Origin: Parietichytrium sp. I65-24A
Lineage: Eukaryota > Sar > Bigyra > Thraustochytrida > Thraustochytriidae
Assembly: GCA_012862575.1 (NCBI GenBank)
Contig: BLSF01000036.1
Coordinates: forward strand, 372,001 to 436,000
DNA: 64,000 nucleotides
Reading direction: 5' to 3'
Made by a program: the position numbers and the translations under genes. Below are positions 53,829 to 58,632 of this stretch, in pieces (positions within the stretch are counted from its first letter, which is position 1; every line of letters starts with the position of its first letter). Under the pieces are notes generated by a model, which did not search any database, was not told the DNA's origin, and saw only the letters and a program-made list of their open reading frames with translations.

Positions 53829-55793
53829 TTAGGTACAAGGCAGTTTCGGGCGGTAAGTCCCATACTGATGCACTGGAACGGTTGTTTCTAACCAGTGCAT
53901 CAAGCGACGAAGGTCACTCGGCCCAAACTTGAAGTTTGCCTCATCGCTTCGACTTTCGCATTCGCATGGTGTGTAAACTATGTGGTAGATTTCTAGGCTG
54001 CGAGCCATCTTCCCGTCGTTCAGTGCAAGGTGGGAATAACCTCCACAAGTGAGCTCGATCGCAACAATATTCTTCCTAACAAAGAGAATATTTCCAAACT
54101 GGCCTCCATGTGGCATTAGCAAAATGTCTGCTTTGTGAAATGCCTGAGCTTGGGCTTCAATACTATATTTGGAAAAGTCTTCCACAAGAGTAATGTCAAG
54201 ATGTGGCGAGCTGGACTGCCAGCTGCGAAGCGTACTTTGAATGTCTAACCATGCTCTCCTCTTTCCTGCTTCCCCTGCGGTGTTGTGTGGGTAAACAAGA
54301 ACGTTGTACACGATATCGTTGGCTGGTCGCTCGTCGCCCGCTAAGGAGCTGAGCATGGTGCGAGCCTCTGATGCAGACATGGCTTTTCGTCTTAATAGAA
54401 AGCCCTCGCTCAACTTGTCGCGTGCCCAGTCAACAAGAGGTTTTTCGGAGAATGCGTTCATGTGATTCCAGCCCTGCACCGGAACGATGAGCTCCGAAAA
54501 ACAGGTCAGCACTCCAGGAAACATATCCAGAGGAGGGGCTCCAACATCTTCACCAAACGCCCCAAGCTTGGACATCACAGCGCACATCCACGCATCGTGC
54601 TGGCAAAGCGGTGTTTGATGCGTCGCAACCAAATCATAATACTTGACCTTGTGAACCTCCTGACTCTTAAGGATTGTCAAAATCGAGAAGAGCGAGTCCC
54701 AGAGTTGGTGGCCAGGGTTGTTGCGAGTGTACTGCAACAATAACGTGCGGCGGTCATAATACACAGCGGCCCGGATCCGAGTTGACAATTGATTGAATGA
54801 TTCTTCTCCAGGTACCTGTCGCTGACCTGCCATGCGGATATTGCGCTGGTGACTGGCGTAGCACTCGGCGTAGTCCTGCAAGCTCATCGCGTTAGCCTGG
54901 TGCACCCACATCATTCCGCACCGATTTGTGCCCCATTCATAGTTGGTTTGCGGATTTGGGCAGTAAACGCAGCGATTATCGCGTTTGTTCAATGGGTCAA
55001 CGAATATGACCCCCCGTTGTGCCTGCTTGGAGGAGTCAATGTTCCAAGACACGCAAACGTCATGAAATAGGTACGCCGAGCCAATATCAGCATAGTCAGA
55101 GAGCGCTAAAGTAGCGCGGAGCATCGCAGGGCTGGTGGACTGCGAAAATGCTGGAAGACTCGGTAGGAACAGCGTCGGATCCCAGGAGCACATGTCATGA
55201 TCGGTGAGCGACATCAAACTTGCCCCCTTAACATTTTCGAGGTGAAACTGCAGCCCAGGAATCCCCAAACTCGACAAAAGCTCTTCTTGCACCGCCAGTT
55301 CACTGACGCCAGCTTGGGATGGTTTGAACTTTGGGCCTCTAAAATTGCATCCTCCAGCATTGGTGAGCTCCCTGCCGGACAACTTGACGCGCGTCTTCGA
55401 CTTTTCCAGTTCCAGGAAATCCTGCTGAAACTCTCTCGCCTCGCGGGAGTCCCTGCCATCGTCCGGGTTGTGTGGCGAGTCCAGATATTTCCCAAACAGC
55501 TTCTCGGCATCGAACCCCGGAAGCGAGGAGTAAGAAGACCAGGACATCATGCTCGCACTGCCCGGAGTCCCTGGCGGGCCGGCAAACACACTGGACCCTC
55601 GGCCCACCATTCTCAGCACCTTTTCCCACACCCAAATAGTCCAGCCCGCGACGAGCACCAGGCCAAGGCCCACCAGCAAGCGCCTGCGCTGGCCCACCCT
55701 GTGTGCGCGCACTTTGGACTCATCGCCCGGGGAAGCATCTTCGCCGCGCGAGGAGTCACCAGGTCGCATGATGCCGCGCGTGGAAGGCCGCAT
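53829..55793 (-). CDS. Type II membrane glycosyltransferase, GT61-like
   Basis: The product has 654 residues from the ATG at 55793 (MRPSTRGIM). A basic tail precedes one signal-anchor helix (39-59), the topology of Golgi glycosyltransferases. The long lumenal part ends in a GT61/DUF563-like block at about 557-581, DILLMPHGGQFGNILF, with downstream AIEL, matching the GPHGAGLTN...VVEL segment of the family. GT61 enzymes move xylose, arabinose or GlcNAc onto glycans or proteins; donor and acceptor are unknown. Many Cys in the middle (CVYCPN, CGMMW, CECES) suggest disulfides. The gene is tail to tail with the SNF2 gene, 132 bp apart. Confidence 0.76.
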   Translation of the reverse strand: MRPSTRGIMRPGDSSRGEDASPGDESKVRAHRVGQRRRLLVGLGLVLVAGWTIWVWEKVLRMVGRGSSVFAGPPGTPGSASMMSWSSYSSLPGFDAEKLFGKYLDSPHNPDDGRDSREAREFQQDFLELEKSKTRVKLSGRELTNAGGCNFRGPKFKPSQAGVSELAVQEELLSSLGIPGLQFHLENVKGASLMSLTDHDMCSWDPTLFLPSLPAFSQSTSPAMLRATLALSDYADIGSAYLFHDVCVSWNIDSSKQAQRGVIFVDPLNKRDNRCVYCPNPQTNYEWGTNRCGMMWVHQANAMSLQDYAECYASHQRNIRMAGQRQVPGEESFNQLSTRIRAAVYYDRRTLLLQYTRNNPGHQLWDSLFSILTILKSQEVHKVKYYDLVATHQTPLCQHDAWMCAVMSKLGAFGEDVGAPPLDMFPGVLTCFSELIVPVQGWNHMNAFSEKPLVDWARDKLSEGFLLRRKAMSASEARTMLSSLAGDERPANDIVYNVLVYPHNTAGEAGKRRAWLDIQSTLRSWQSSSPHLDITLVEDFSKYSIEAQAQAFHKADILLMPHGGQFGNILFVRKNIVAIELTCGGYSHLALNDGKMARSLEIYHIVYTPCECESRSDEANFKFGPSDLRRLMHWLETTVPVHQYGTYRPKLPCT

Positions 55794-55984
55794 TCCCGGA
55801 GTCTATCGCGAGCAGGACGGCGCTGTTTTGCTCGTTCCGCACTTGCCTCCCAGTCTCGCGGCTCTCGTGGCGGTGTAACGGGATTTGTGACACTCTGACA
55901 CCACGTATTGTAGCTTGTCTGACACATTCTGACACTGTCGCTACCAACGAACAGTGCGAACGATTGAGTTCAAACTAAAAGGTA

Positions 55985-56590
55985 TCATAACAAACACATA
56001 ATGCATAGTTCGGCATCGCGCCGCCTCAGTGGCAAAAAGTAGGTCAGTTTTGAAATGAATCGAATCATGATGTTCCTCGCGCCGTTGATGTCCCTTGGAA
56101 ATGTAAAGGATTTACATTGTTTGCAATCGTATGTGTCAGATCCTCCAAGTTTCCGATCCAGGTTTCCGCAATTCCCACAAGTCATAGACGTATAGACGTA
56201 TACGCTTCATCGCACATTATGACCGTCGTTTTGAGGGTCACTTTCGCTTTATTGATGAGCATTTGTCTGAACCCAACGTGTCTCCATCCCAACATGGCCC
56301 GAACAGTTTTCTTTCCAATTTTGCGCCGGCGGTTTGGGTTATCCTTCACAGCGACCATTTTCGATGATTCGAATTTGGGCAAAAGGATTACTTTGTAGGT
56401 CGAGACGAGAAATTTGCAAAGAGCCTGGTGAAGTGGTTAACTTGGTTTTTGTTTCTCCACAGAAGCTTCTCGCAGGCCGCTTTCATTTTCATCCGTTTCA
56501 CTAACCCACGTTCATTATCTAGCTCTTGTTCAAAAAAATCTGACTGGTGATACTAGTGATGCTGGTGCGAGAAGCACGTCAGAGAAAAAT
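55985..56590 (-). pseudogene. Decayed TnpB/Fanzor-type RuvC nuclease, C-terminal half
   Basis: On the minus strand, 55985-56185 encodes CGNCGN...CKQC followed by RDINGARNI, the zinc ribbon and last RuvC motif of TnpB and Fanzor proteins (the RD-NGARN Asp is catalytic). Just upstream, 56182-56382 encodes LLPKFESSKMV, RRKIGKKTVRAMLGW, a HxxFRQ-like helix and IMCDEAYTS, the matching central RuvC region. The two lie in different frames; an 8 bp tandem duplication (TACGTCTA) at the junction looks like the cause. Weaker similarity (LHQALCKFLVSTYKVI, then a Lys/Arg helix) goes on to about 56590 in shifting frames. The N-terminal half is not visible. TnpB and Fanzor are RNA-guided nucleases carried by IS607-like DNA transposons; this copy is a 5'-truncated relic. 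Confidence 0.85.
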
Positions 56591-57261
56591 TTTTCTTTGT
56601 TCTCAAAATGGAAAAAAGCAGTAAATGAAAATAGAAGATGAGAACTCGCGAATTGCGAACCTTTTGGTTTCGATGTTTTCCGAGAAGGCGCGACCGGTTC
56701 GATGGCTTTTCCGCACTTGGAGAAAGAAAAGGCGTTGGGTACCGGTACGGTAGCGAGAGAGTAAATTTAACTCCGCGAGCACGACAAGTTGCGGACGCGG
56801 GAACAGCTAGCCTACTTTGTTCTCTTCTATGGTCACGCGATGTGGATACGAGAGGACACAGATGTACACTTAAGCCGGTGCTCGTGCATCCAGACTGAGC
56901 TTATTTGTCCCAGCACGTCTACGCTGAGAATGTGATGAAAAAAAATTCGAGTTTGATAAGAAAAAATAGATTTGTTGGACAATAGTCAGCGCAGCAGTCG
57001 CTAGCTGGGATTTACGCAGAAGCCCATCGAAGGAGTGCGAAAAAGCGCATGTGCTGGAATAGCGCTGCCACACGTGGGGCATGGGCAAGAGCCAAGTTGT
57101 AAATTGGTATTGGTCTAGCACGTTTCGGTACAAACAAGCGATCATGCGTGACCGGGACGGTTACAGGAATCATACAGAGGGCAGGAAGTTGGTCAGTTTG
57201 GTCAATGAGTGGCTCGCTAGGCCACACATTCGCTCACAGAAAATACACGCCTGAGAGACGT
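56591..57261. other. Spacer upstream of the nuclease relic
   Basis: The 671 bp should contain the lost 5' part of the relic if it was ever inserted whole, but I see no protein similarity. A GTACCGGTAC palindrome lies at about 56740-56749. No terminal inverted repeat was found by eye. Confidence 0.35.
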
Positions 57262-58152
57262 CTAAGCTGTGGCACCGACGAGACGAGCTTCGTTTCCGAA
57301 ATCAAGCTCGTTTATCGAGGCCTTGCGCCCAAGAAATGGGATCCAGTGTGATTTGGGGGAAAGGAACTTGAAATCGACACCGCCTGGGTAGTAAGGGTTG
57401 CTCTTGAGCTCCCTCACACGGCGTTCTTCGTCCTTCTTCTCCTGCTTGGCGCGTATCTTAGCAGCCTTCTCCGCTTGCTTTTCGGGGGTCTCCTTCCTGA
57501 AACTTAGACGCTTGCTCTGACTAATGATGGACTTTTTAATCGAGGTGGATTTTGCCTTCTTCTCCTTATCACGCCGAGAGGCCGAGAGCTTGGAATCTCC
57601 TTCACTCTCGTTGCCGCTGTCCTTTGCCGAACGACCTCCGGAAAGCAGCCGTGAGAAGCGCACGCTCAGCCGGGAGCCTTTGGACTTTTCGCTTTTCTCA
57701 GACTTCTTGTGCGCCACCTTGGGAGCTTTCTCTTTGGTTCCAGGTCTTGGAATATTGAAGGAATCATATTCATCAGAGTCTGCATCGATCTGAACCTCAA
57801 CGTCGGGGTTCAGGTTGGACTCTACAGCGATATCGTCAGAGTATACATCATCGATGCTTGCGCGACTCGCCTTTGACGCTACCGTCGACCTCCCTGGGCT
57901 TTCACCGGTACGGTCTGAATATCCGGACTTTCTTGATCGCTGACCGTGACTCTTTCGCTTCTCCGTGGCCCACGCCACAGGGTCCTGGATGGCGCTGTTG
58001 CCTGCTTCGAATGTCTCGCGGTGGCCCTTTTCACTAGGGTCTACTTCGCCGTCAGGCTCTACGGCCTTTCCATTCGTCCCGCGCGACGAGTCAAAAGGGT
58101 CGACCTCCTTCTTTTCGCCGCGCTTCTTACTACTCCTCAGCAACCTCCTCAT
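57262..58152 (-). CDS. Basic Ser/Lys-rich protein, unrecognised
   Basis: The product has 296 residues from the ATG at 58152 (MRRLLRSSKK). It is strongly charged and mostly disordered: acidic-Ser patches in the first half (DDVYSDDI, QIDADSDEYDSF), Ser/Lys/Arg-rich sequence after about residue 150 (KKSEKSEKSKGS, SKLSASRRDKEKKAK), and a helical Lys/Glu stretch (EKQAEKAAKIRAKQEKKDEERR). The last 50 residues are more ordered (NPYYPGGVDFKFLSPKSHW, PFLGRKASINELDF) and may be the conserved part. Many RxxS sites suggest kinase regulation. No family is recognised. Confidence 0.62.
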   Translation of the reverse strand: MRRLLRSSKKRGEKKEVDPFDSSRGTNGKAVEPDGEVDPSEKGHRETFEAGNSAIQDPVAWATEKRKSHGQRSRKSGYSDRTGESPGRSTVASKASRASIDDVYSDDIAVESNLNPDVEVQIDADSDEYDSFNIPRPGTKEKAPKVAHKKSEKSEKSKGSRLSVRFSRLLSGGRSAKDSGNESEGDSKLSASRRDKEKKAKSTSIKKSIISQSKRLSFRKETPEKQAEKAAKIRAKQEKKDEERRVRELKSNPYYPGGVDFKFLSPKSHWIPFLGRKASINELDFGNEARLVGATA

Positions 58153-58632
58153 CCTGGCAGCCAAAGTTCTGCTCGTATGCTACACCACACCTCGGTCTTT
58201 GCGCCACCTACAAGCTCGATGCGCAAGCACCTAGCCCGATTTCTATTTCGCAGCACCCGCACCACCAGCTGCCAGCCCCCACGTGCCCCGAAACACTTGC
58301 AGTCGTGACAGCCCAATCCCACAGCAGTCCAGTACAGAGCAGAGCAGTGCAAACAGAGAGCTTGTGCAAGACAATAGCGGCAAATGTCTCGCCACTGCCA
58401 CTGCCGCTGCGCTCCGTGCTCTCTCCGGCCTCACTAGACTCACTTCCGTCTGTGTTGCTTCCTTCCTGGCTTCCTTCCTTCCCTCTCTCCCTCTATCTCC
58501 CTCTTCTGCTTTTGCTGCTTCCGTCTCCCCTACTCTATCTACTCTCACTCACCACACTGCTATGTCCGAGTCTCCCTCCACCTCTCTCCTACTCTCCTAC
58601 TCTCTCTCTCTCTCTCTCTCTCTCTTAGCGGT

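Follow-up and report, generated by a model that had tools for sequence, protein, structure and literature searches.

A decayed Fanzor-type nuclease copy in a thraustochytrid genome and an IS607-type family with intron-like ends in giant-virus DNA

Is positions 55985-56590 of the 64,000-nucleotide stretch analysed here (the window; contig BLSF01000036.1 of Parietichytrium sp. I65-24A, below C36) what is left of an RNA-guided nuclease gene, and does the same genome hold relatives that could show how such an element lived? The first-pass annotation of this DNA had called the locus a truncated, decayed TnpB/Fanzor copy of an IS607-like element on the minus strand, and had suggested that intact relatives with a guide (omega) RNA may exist elsewhere in the genome.

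The nuclease fragment in the window

The blocks on which that call had been based, namely a CGNCGN/CKQC zinc ribbon with RDINGARNI, LLPKFESSKMV and IMCDEAYTS, were all found again at their place and on the minus strand. The identity of 55985-56590 as a TnpB/Fanzor nuclease also held up, as the ribbon scored above the PF07282 cut-off and a Fanzor ORF of the same genome (that of contig C116) aligned to the locus by tblastn. With the C116 ORF as query, three collinear pieces in three frames were obtained, at 56501-56352 (E 4.7e-7), 56433-56110 (E 1.9e-23) and 56197-56045 (E 3.7e-18), the E-values referring to a 6 kb target; this similarity is far above chance. It extends from about 56501 down to the tail end at about 55960, and 55960-56501 (minus strand) is a truncated, frame-broken TnpB/Fanzor nuclease fragment. 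For 56505-56590, no match was found by tblastn with five proteins of the same genome, nor by DNA search of that genome.

The upstream piece (56352-56501, minus strand, 40% identity) corresponds to residues 101-150 of the C116 ORF, between RuvC-I and RuvC-II, and stands in a frame of its own. The middle piece (56182-56436, minus strand) is the RuvC-II region as judged by tblastn and the alignment; its ORF holds both LLPKFESSKMV and IMCDEAYTS, with the alternative catalytic Glu in DEAYTS, and matches PF07282 weakly, under the cut-off (E 0.041, 14.5 bits). In LLPKF, Pro occupies the position where TnpB usually has Glu. The C-terminal piece (55985-56206, minus strand, 61% identity by tblastn), in the third frame, reads MTCGNCGN..CKQC..RDINGARNI and comprises the C4 zinc ribbon and the RuvC-III Asp (RDINGARN); its translation matched the profile PF07282 (Cas12f1-like_TNB) with an E-value of 5.7e-9 and 36.4 bits, the gathering cut-off being 26.3. 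Two further ORFs lie outside the element: a 657-aa ORF of the glycosyltransferase 61 family (53829-55802, minus strand; PF04577, E 3.5e-7), about 160 bp upstream of which the relic ends in the same orientation, and a 305-aa ORF (57262-58179, minus strand) for which the profile search gave no Pfam match.

With regard to the features by which these nucleases are recognised, the C4 zinc ribbon followed by RD, common to Fanzor and TnpB, is present in the relic with PF07282 above the cut-off. The alternative Glu six residues ahead of the first CxxC, characteristic of Fanzor2 and pro-Fanzors, is seen only when two pieces are juxtaposed across a frame break, DEAYTS being in one frame and MTCGNC in the next. 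The RuvC-I DPG motif and the N-terminal half, likewise features of Fanzor2 and pro-Fanzors, are missing by truncation, since similarity begins only at residue 101 of the C116 ORF. Of the RuvC nuclease that had been claimed, the RuvC-II/III region is thus retained and RuvC-I is absent. A TnpA serine recombinase, the mark of IS607 elements, was not found on contig C36 (four resolvase places were returned genome-wide). Truncation and decay proved to be the best reading of the locus, which has the C-terminal half only, three frames with two frame breaks, and no transposase. We are almost certain that the relic, which stands between two other ORFs, represents a Fanzor2-type nuclease gene of an IS607-type transposon that has lost its 5' part and is dead. 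By itself such a relic is ordinary.

An omega RNA had been expected just 3' of the zinc ribbon, and conserved sequence is indeed present there. A DNA search of the genome with 55900-56700 (minus strand) returned the window itself and two other places, on C7 (86% over 113 bp, window 56071-55960) and C47 (81% over 60 bp). The two matches stop within 3 bp of each other and both end GTTTGAACTCAATAG. From the genome DNA search, blastn and the flanks, we take 55960-56071 (minus strand) as a conserved 3' tail, common to C7 and C47, that extends as far as the presumed right end of the element. The expectation was borne out in the conserved tail, not in the RNA fold: the two tails folded, that of the relic (z +1.65) and that at C7 (z +0.41), folded no better than shuffles. 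Because the relic tail is conserved in sequence without a fold above shuffles, an omega RNA of the relic is suggested by its relatives alone, and the folding model does not support a live one at this locus. On the flanks of the C7 (L023:2700-3000) and C47 (L024:2600-2720) tails stand AGTCAGTC... words that are almost the same, reading AGTCAGTCAT at C7 and AGTCAGTCGACT at C47; these may be duplications or a common word of the genome.

Fanzor copies elsewhere in the genome

Relatives with long ORFs (637, 637, 591 and 530 aa) do exist elsewhere in the genome, as had been anticipated. At least 12 places with a PF07282 ribbon were found in its 42.5 Mb, the longest open frame among them being 637 aa, and they fall into at least three families, two with IS607-type transposases. 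The proposed IS607-like link was likewise corroborated: at least four PF00239 places were found, one on C148 and three beside Fanzor ORFs (C116, C61 and C134), and the two of these serine resolvases tested against the NCBI IS607 model NF033518 (cut-off 110) both passed, with 149.4 bits for C116 and 114 for C61. A DPG...E(6)C..C fingerprint was present in all five long ORFs tested, the spacing limits of our scan being looser than those given in the parts of PMC10711439 covered here, where DPG with the alternative Glu is described as a mark of Fanzors.

Family A comprises the copies on C61 and C134, which are 97% identical over 2,093 bp and have different flanks; judged by sequence, it seems to have moved recently, on another replicon of foreign origin, the second in this genome. 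Its ends read AATATTAGTTTC... and ...GGTAACGG.GA, without splice signals. The stretches that hold it (C61:222000-229500 and C134:38500-45945) have 43% GC, compared with 51% in the window. Family B (C40, C14, C8, C97, C26 and C142) is about 70-90% alike at the DNA level, with a common right-end sequence past the ribbon and ORFs of 530 aa on C40 and 591 aa on C14. The genome PF00239 search returned no intact resolvase for family B, and the C14 ORF begins with a transposase-frame remnant. Family C consists of the copies on C116 and C148 together with their derivatives, which are described below.

The relationships among these copies were examined in a tree of 23 rows. Besides the relic, it holds seven copies of this genome and 15 loci out of the 21 obtained in the IMG/VR and prokaryotic searches; the remaining six (L070, L075, L076, L078, L081 and L082), being near-copies or fragments, were omitted. 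In this tree the relic stands beside C116 with support of 89/97 and 58% identity over 122 columns. This support is under the strictest level, and the pairing is likely rather than certain because C116 forms a long branch; that the relic is kin to family C we nevertheless hold to be very likely. Family B, represented by four rows, groups as one clade (98/97), family A is distant, and ten cyanobacterial pro-Fanzors and one IMG/VR row form another clade (95/97). In the IMG/VR protein search, the single C116 and C61 Fanzors gave no matches and an alignment query gave four loci. Related alternative-Glu TnpBs outside the cyanobacteria were seen on a 252 kb IMG/VR contig (L064), which has an overlapping IS607-like TnpA, and in a Paludibacteraceae MAG (L080); neither has a DPG within the stretches read.

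Family C and its intron-like ends

The contigs that carry family C are of giant-virus type. C116 (60 kb) has the sole NCLDV major capsid gene returned for the genome (PF04451, E 5.1e-35), as well as an Erv1/Alr gene and an origin-binding helicase (PF02399, E 9e-16), and C153 and C158 hold two parts of a B-family DNA polymerase that looks, from its sequence, to be split by an intein. C148 has no viral hallmark among those tested and is grouped with the virus because of the family C elements that it shares. Pieces of family C are found on large contigs as well, at C4:1484-1650 (97%), C8:1-129 (94%) and on C75 and C35 (93-94% over 82 bp); those on C4 and C8 sit at extreme contig ends, perhaps subtelomeres. 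At C116:5994-8024 lies a second Fanzor relic of family C, whose ribbon is interrupted by a stop and by about 1.7 kb of unrelated-looking sequence; it reads GTGTTTAAAATTATTCCAG past the ribbon, with no second copy to fix that as the end.

The full element (C116:49530-52125) is 2,596 bp long and carries tnpA with the Fanzor gene downstream. Five derivatives keep the left and right ends and neither gene: four long ones of 435-493 bp (C148:2221-2713, C153:1654-2146, C153:10821-11304 and C158:4908-5342) and a short one of 205 bp (C116:28198-28402). The long derivatives are 94-99% identical over shared segments, apart from C158 and the second C153 copy, which are 84% identical in an alignment spanning a deletion; the short copy shows 88% identity. 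In the four long copies the identity stops at the ends and the flanks are unrelated (no similarity at E 1e-5), which means that these copies are not duplicated genes. Their ends match those of the TnpA/Fanzor element over about 180 bp on the left (about 70%) and about 127 bp on the right (86-89%).

It is these ends that resemble introns. A search of the whole genome with the left-end pattern gave seven matches, all on C116, C148, C153 and C158, and the reversed control gave none. CAG precedes each of the seven, giving CAG/GTAAGT (the slash marks the element boundary), the exact complement of the 5' end of U1. All six right ends examined have CTAAC, about 20 bases and then CAG at the boundary. 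The CAG at the left flank (7/7) and at the right end (6/6) is consistent with insertion without a longer target duplication, a short core being common to element and target. As in introners, similar sequence is thus found at several putative intron positions with unrelated flanks (the four long copies), and GT...AG ends with a branch-point signal lie exactly at the element ends, in sense and in an open frame, the frame being weak for C158 and the full C116 element. It should be underlined that the seven left ends are not seven independent cases, because they may all descend from a single event in a single virus. No U1 was recovered from this genome, nor from any of 14 control genomes, so that this null result is uninformative. 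In IMG/VR the right-end pattern had no match; the left-end pattern returned five stretches, four with the same sequence at the match and none of the five after CAG, and these were treated as chance. Families A and B were rejected as introners, their ends having no splice signals. The relic has neither intron ends nor a left end and does not qualify as a former intron.

We then considered the reading frames into which the family C elements are inserted. When the element was omitted, the frame across the site was open for 1190 codons for the short C116 copy, 963 for the first C153 copy, 511 for C148, 301 for the second C153 copy and 99 for C158 (79 in the frame that has an ATG); the full C116 element gave 125. 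When it was retained, the frames stopped after 1 (C116 short), 1 (C153 first), 19 (C148), 38 (C153 second), 18 (C158) and 1 (full C116) codons. The joined frames of the short C116 and first C153 copies run off the start of the examined piece or contig, as does, in the unjoined frame list, the upstream frame of the second C153 copy. The latter copy is followed by an ordinary-looking GTGAGT...CAG intron, and omission of this as well gives 327 codons. The case for insertion in a gene is weak at C158 and for the full C116 element. For all five derivatives the longest frame across the empty site runs in the sense direction of the element, and these five, which lack both element genes, sit in sense in different genes. 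The interrupted genes include the origin-binding helicase and the apparent intein part of the polymerase gene, both otherwise open. Judged by the residues, the first C153 derivative (1654-2146) lies inside the putative intein of the viral DNA polymerase gene, and would be a mobile intron in a mobile intein; no intein profile came up among the matches.

Open joined frames show insertion in a gene and not splicing, since any precise insertion leaves such a frame. The splice reading is instead drawn from the signals at the ends, from the direction in which the elements lie and from the otherwise healthy state of the genes that they interrupt, and with these three lines of sequence evidence we consider it likely that family C elements are spliced out as introns.

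The C116 copy also bears on the nuclease and its guide. Its Fanzor ORF covers RuvC-I to RD, and an N-terminal piece (E 1e-12 with the C14 protein) overlaps tnpA, an arrangement that resembles the pro-Fanzor loci examined. The middle of this Fanzor (element nucleotides about 900-1800) has no recognisable similarity to six query proteins, and for this reason the C116 copy may not make a working nuclease. The last 126 nucleotides or so of family C show 92% mean column identity among six sequences. Of the three right ends folded alone and compared with shuffles, C116 gave z -4.53, C148 -3.10 and the short C116 copy -1.21; the fold of the latter is no better than shuffles, and its own best fold is a different one that lacks the branch-point hairpin. 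In the last hairpin of the consensus fold, each of the six sequences is predicted to pair GUUAG with the branch point CUAAC, one of them through a G-U pair; covariation support for the fold is slight, because a two-sided change occurs in only 1 of 37 pairs. Rfam searches returned no family at gathering score in four loci and none up to E 1 on one derivative, and the searches of part of the window around the relic and of the family C loci gave no family. In IS607-element RNA the guide begins at or just past the right end, according to the parts of PMC10711439 covered here. By analogy, the guide of family C would lie in the downstream exon, and splicing would then cut the scaffold from its guide.

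Interpretation and comparison with known systems

As an overall explanation, a dead IS607-Fanzor relic in the window together with a family C that has splice-site ends appears very probable to us. While the relic's element was live, its serine transposase (TnpA) would have moved it between matching dinucleotides, and Fanzor with an omega RNA, read from the right end with flanking DNA as guide, would have ensured its retention by cutting the empty site. In family C the left end would supply the 5' splice site (CAG/GTAAGT), and the right end, within the predicted omega RNA, a branch point followed by the 3' splice site (CTAAC...CAG); the host spliceosome would then remove any element that had landed at a CAG of a viral gene. 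As the guide would lie in the downstream exon and the scaffold can fold over the branch point, a single transcript should not be able both to undergo splicing and to act as a functional guide RNA. We infer that family C is an IS607-Fanzor "introner", a spliceosomal counterpart of the bacterial IStrons. The more detailed proposal is that an IS607-Fanzor element of a giant virus in this protist turned its recombination ends into splice sites, so that each insertion, whether or not it carries genes, is born an intron; that its right end is the guide-RNA scaffold and at the same time provides the branch point and the 3' splice site, the guide lying in the exon that follows, so that splicing and guiding are mutually exclusive; and that the relic derives from a sister lineage in host chromosomes. 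This proposal we consider fairly likely.

The alternative that survives best is that family C consists of ordinary IS607 transposons that break viral genes, their intron-like ends being coincidental. Joined frames would be open after any clean insertion, splicing being read here from sequence, the ends of families A (C61 and C134) and B show that IS607 ends need not be introns, and the family C copies may have a single origin. Against coincidence stand the invariant CAG/GTAAGT at seven of seven left ends and CTAAC with CAG at six of six right ends, the sense direction of the longest frame in all five derivatives, and the otherwise open state of the interrupted polymerase intein part and helicase. 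Moreover, CAGGTAAGT occurs 0 times in 139,570 bases of pieces counted as host, the window included (both strands), but 11 times in 61,503 bases of virus pieces, counts that come from non-random pieces (L014, L015, L041, L042, L058 and L059 being in neither). Seven of the 11 are family C elements; the four others, one with TGCTAAC downstream, may be ordinary introns. A scan for ordinary short introns gave one candidate in 61,503 virus bases and one in 68,069 host bases, too few for a consensus. On this evidence we regard coincidence as unlikely, though still worth serious attention.

The short copies might instead be conventional host introners, or introns duplicated with their genes, that merely resemble an IS607 element. 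Candidate introners are described in mirusviruses (PMC12768974, in the parts covered), but the match of the long-copy ends to the TnpA/Fanzor element and the unrelated flanks of the four long copies make this very improbable. We give slightly less credence still to the idea that the relic was kept for a function, for example as a domesticated zinc-ribbon peptide or as a guide RNA for a nuclease encoded elsewhere. At C7 and C47 the tail does recur on its own, the remainder of the gene being missing, in the manner of the Spizellomyces 'ghost' loci (PMC10432273, parts covered); two frame breaks, relic and C7 tails without a fold above shuffles, and only three tail copies speak against it. Contamination by a bacterial TnpB, which the predominance of cyanobacterial pro-Fanzors among the prokaryotic loci found could bring to mind, is hardly credible and was rejected, as the relic lies between two ORFs inside a contig, its composition is in the range of the window and its nearest tree row is from the same genome.

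If the preferred reading of family C as an IS607-Fanzor introner is confirmed by RNA, RNA-guided transposons would have a new way to hide, namely as a removable intron, and the family would bring the study of RNA-guided transposon nucleases together with two other fields, those of intron gain and of giant viruses. Should the ends be spliced, recombination at CAG by an IS607 serine transposase makes an intron in one step, a concrete mechanism of intron birth. It would also become testable, were the reading true, whether there is competition between splicing and guide-RNA production in eukaryotes, and whether such elements pass from host to host in DNA viruses.

Among known systems, bacterial IStrons combine a group I intron with an IS element whose type can be TnpB-bearing, and a 2024 study reportedly described a conflict between IStron introns and guide RNAs. 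Their insertions are spliced out and do little harm, as proposed here for family C; however, IStrons self-splice by the group I ribozyme (Tourasse et al. 2014, PMC4227781, parts covered), whereas the signals of family C are spliceosomal and no Rfam family reached gathering score in the four loci searched. Both eukaryotes and giant viruses are known to harbour Fanzor2 nucleases within elements of IS607 type (Bao and Jurka 2013, PMC3627910; Yoon et al. 2023, PMC10711439; in the parts covered), with the same PF07282 ribbon, DPG and alternative Glu, IS607-model TnpA and occurrence in large DNA viruses. The window relic differs from these in being truncated, and family C in having spliceosomal splice-site signals as its ends; 'intron' and 'splic' are absent from the text of PMC3627910, and the covered parts of PMC10711439 make no mention of such ends. 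The 'ghost' omega-RNA elements of Spizellomyces SPu-1 (Saito et al. 2023, PMC10432273, parts covered) are likewise short, with both ends and the omega-RNA region and no nuclease gene, but these belong to Fanzor1, have inverted repeats and no transposase found, whereas family C is of IS607 type and forms putative introns in viral genes. In PMC10432273 and PMC11423790, 'spliceosom' occurs once each, in a reference title only. Among the literature matches listed on Fanzor, IS607, introners and IStrons there was no report of a Fanzor or IS607 introner, two 2025 introner papers by Gozashti lying outside this scope.

Family C also resembles introners and mirusvirus shintrons (PMC12768974, parts covered), which are repeated or nuclease-carrying spliceosomal introns in viral genes; in PMC9860276 none of six terms looked for occurs. 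The shintron nucleases described there are HNH, GIY-YIG, VSR-like and PD-(D/E)XK, and Fanzor and TnpB are absent from the covered text of PMC12768974. Family C differs from shintrons in that its mover would be an IS607 serine transposase and its nuclease is of the RNA-guided type. The original call of the relic was correct and concerns an ordinary element; the new part is, as far as the sequences indicate, a giant-virus IS607-Fanzor family with putative spliceosomal intron ends.
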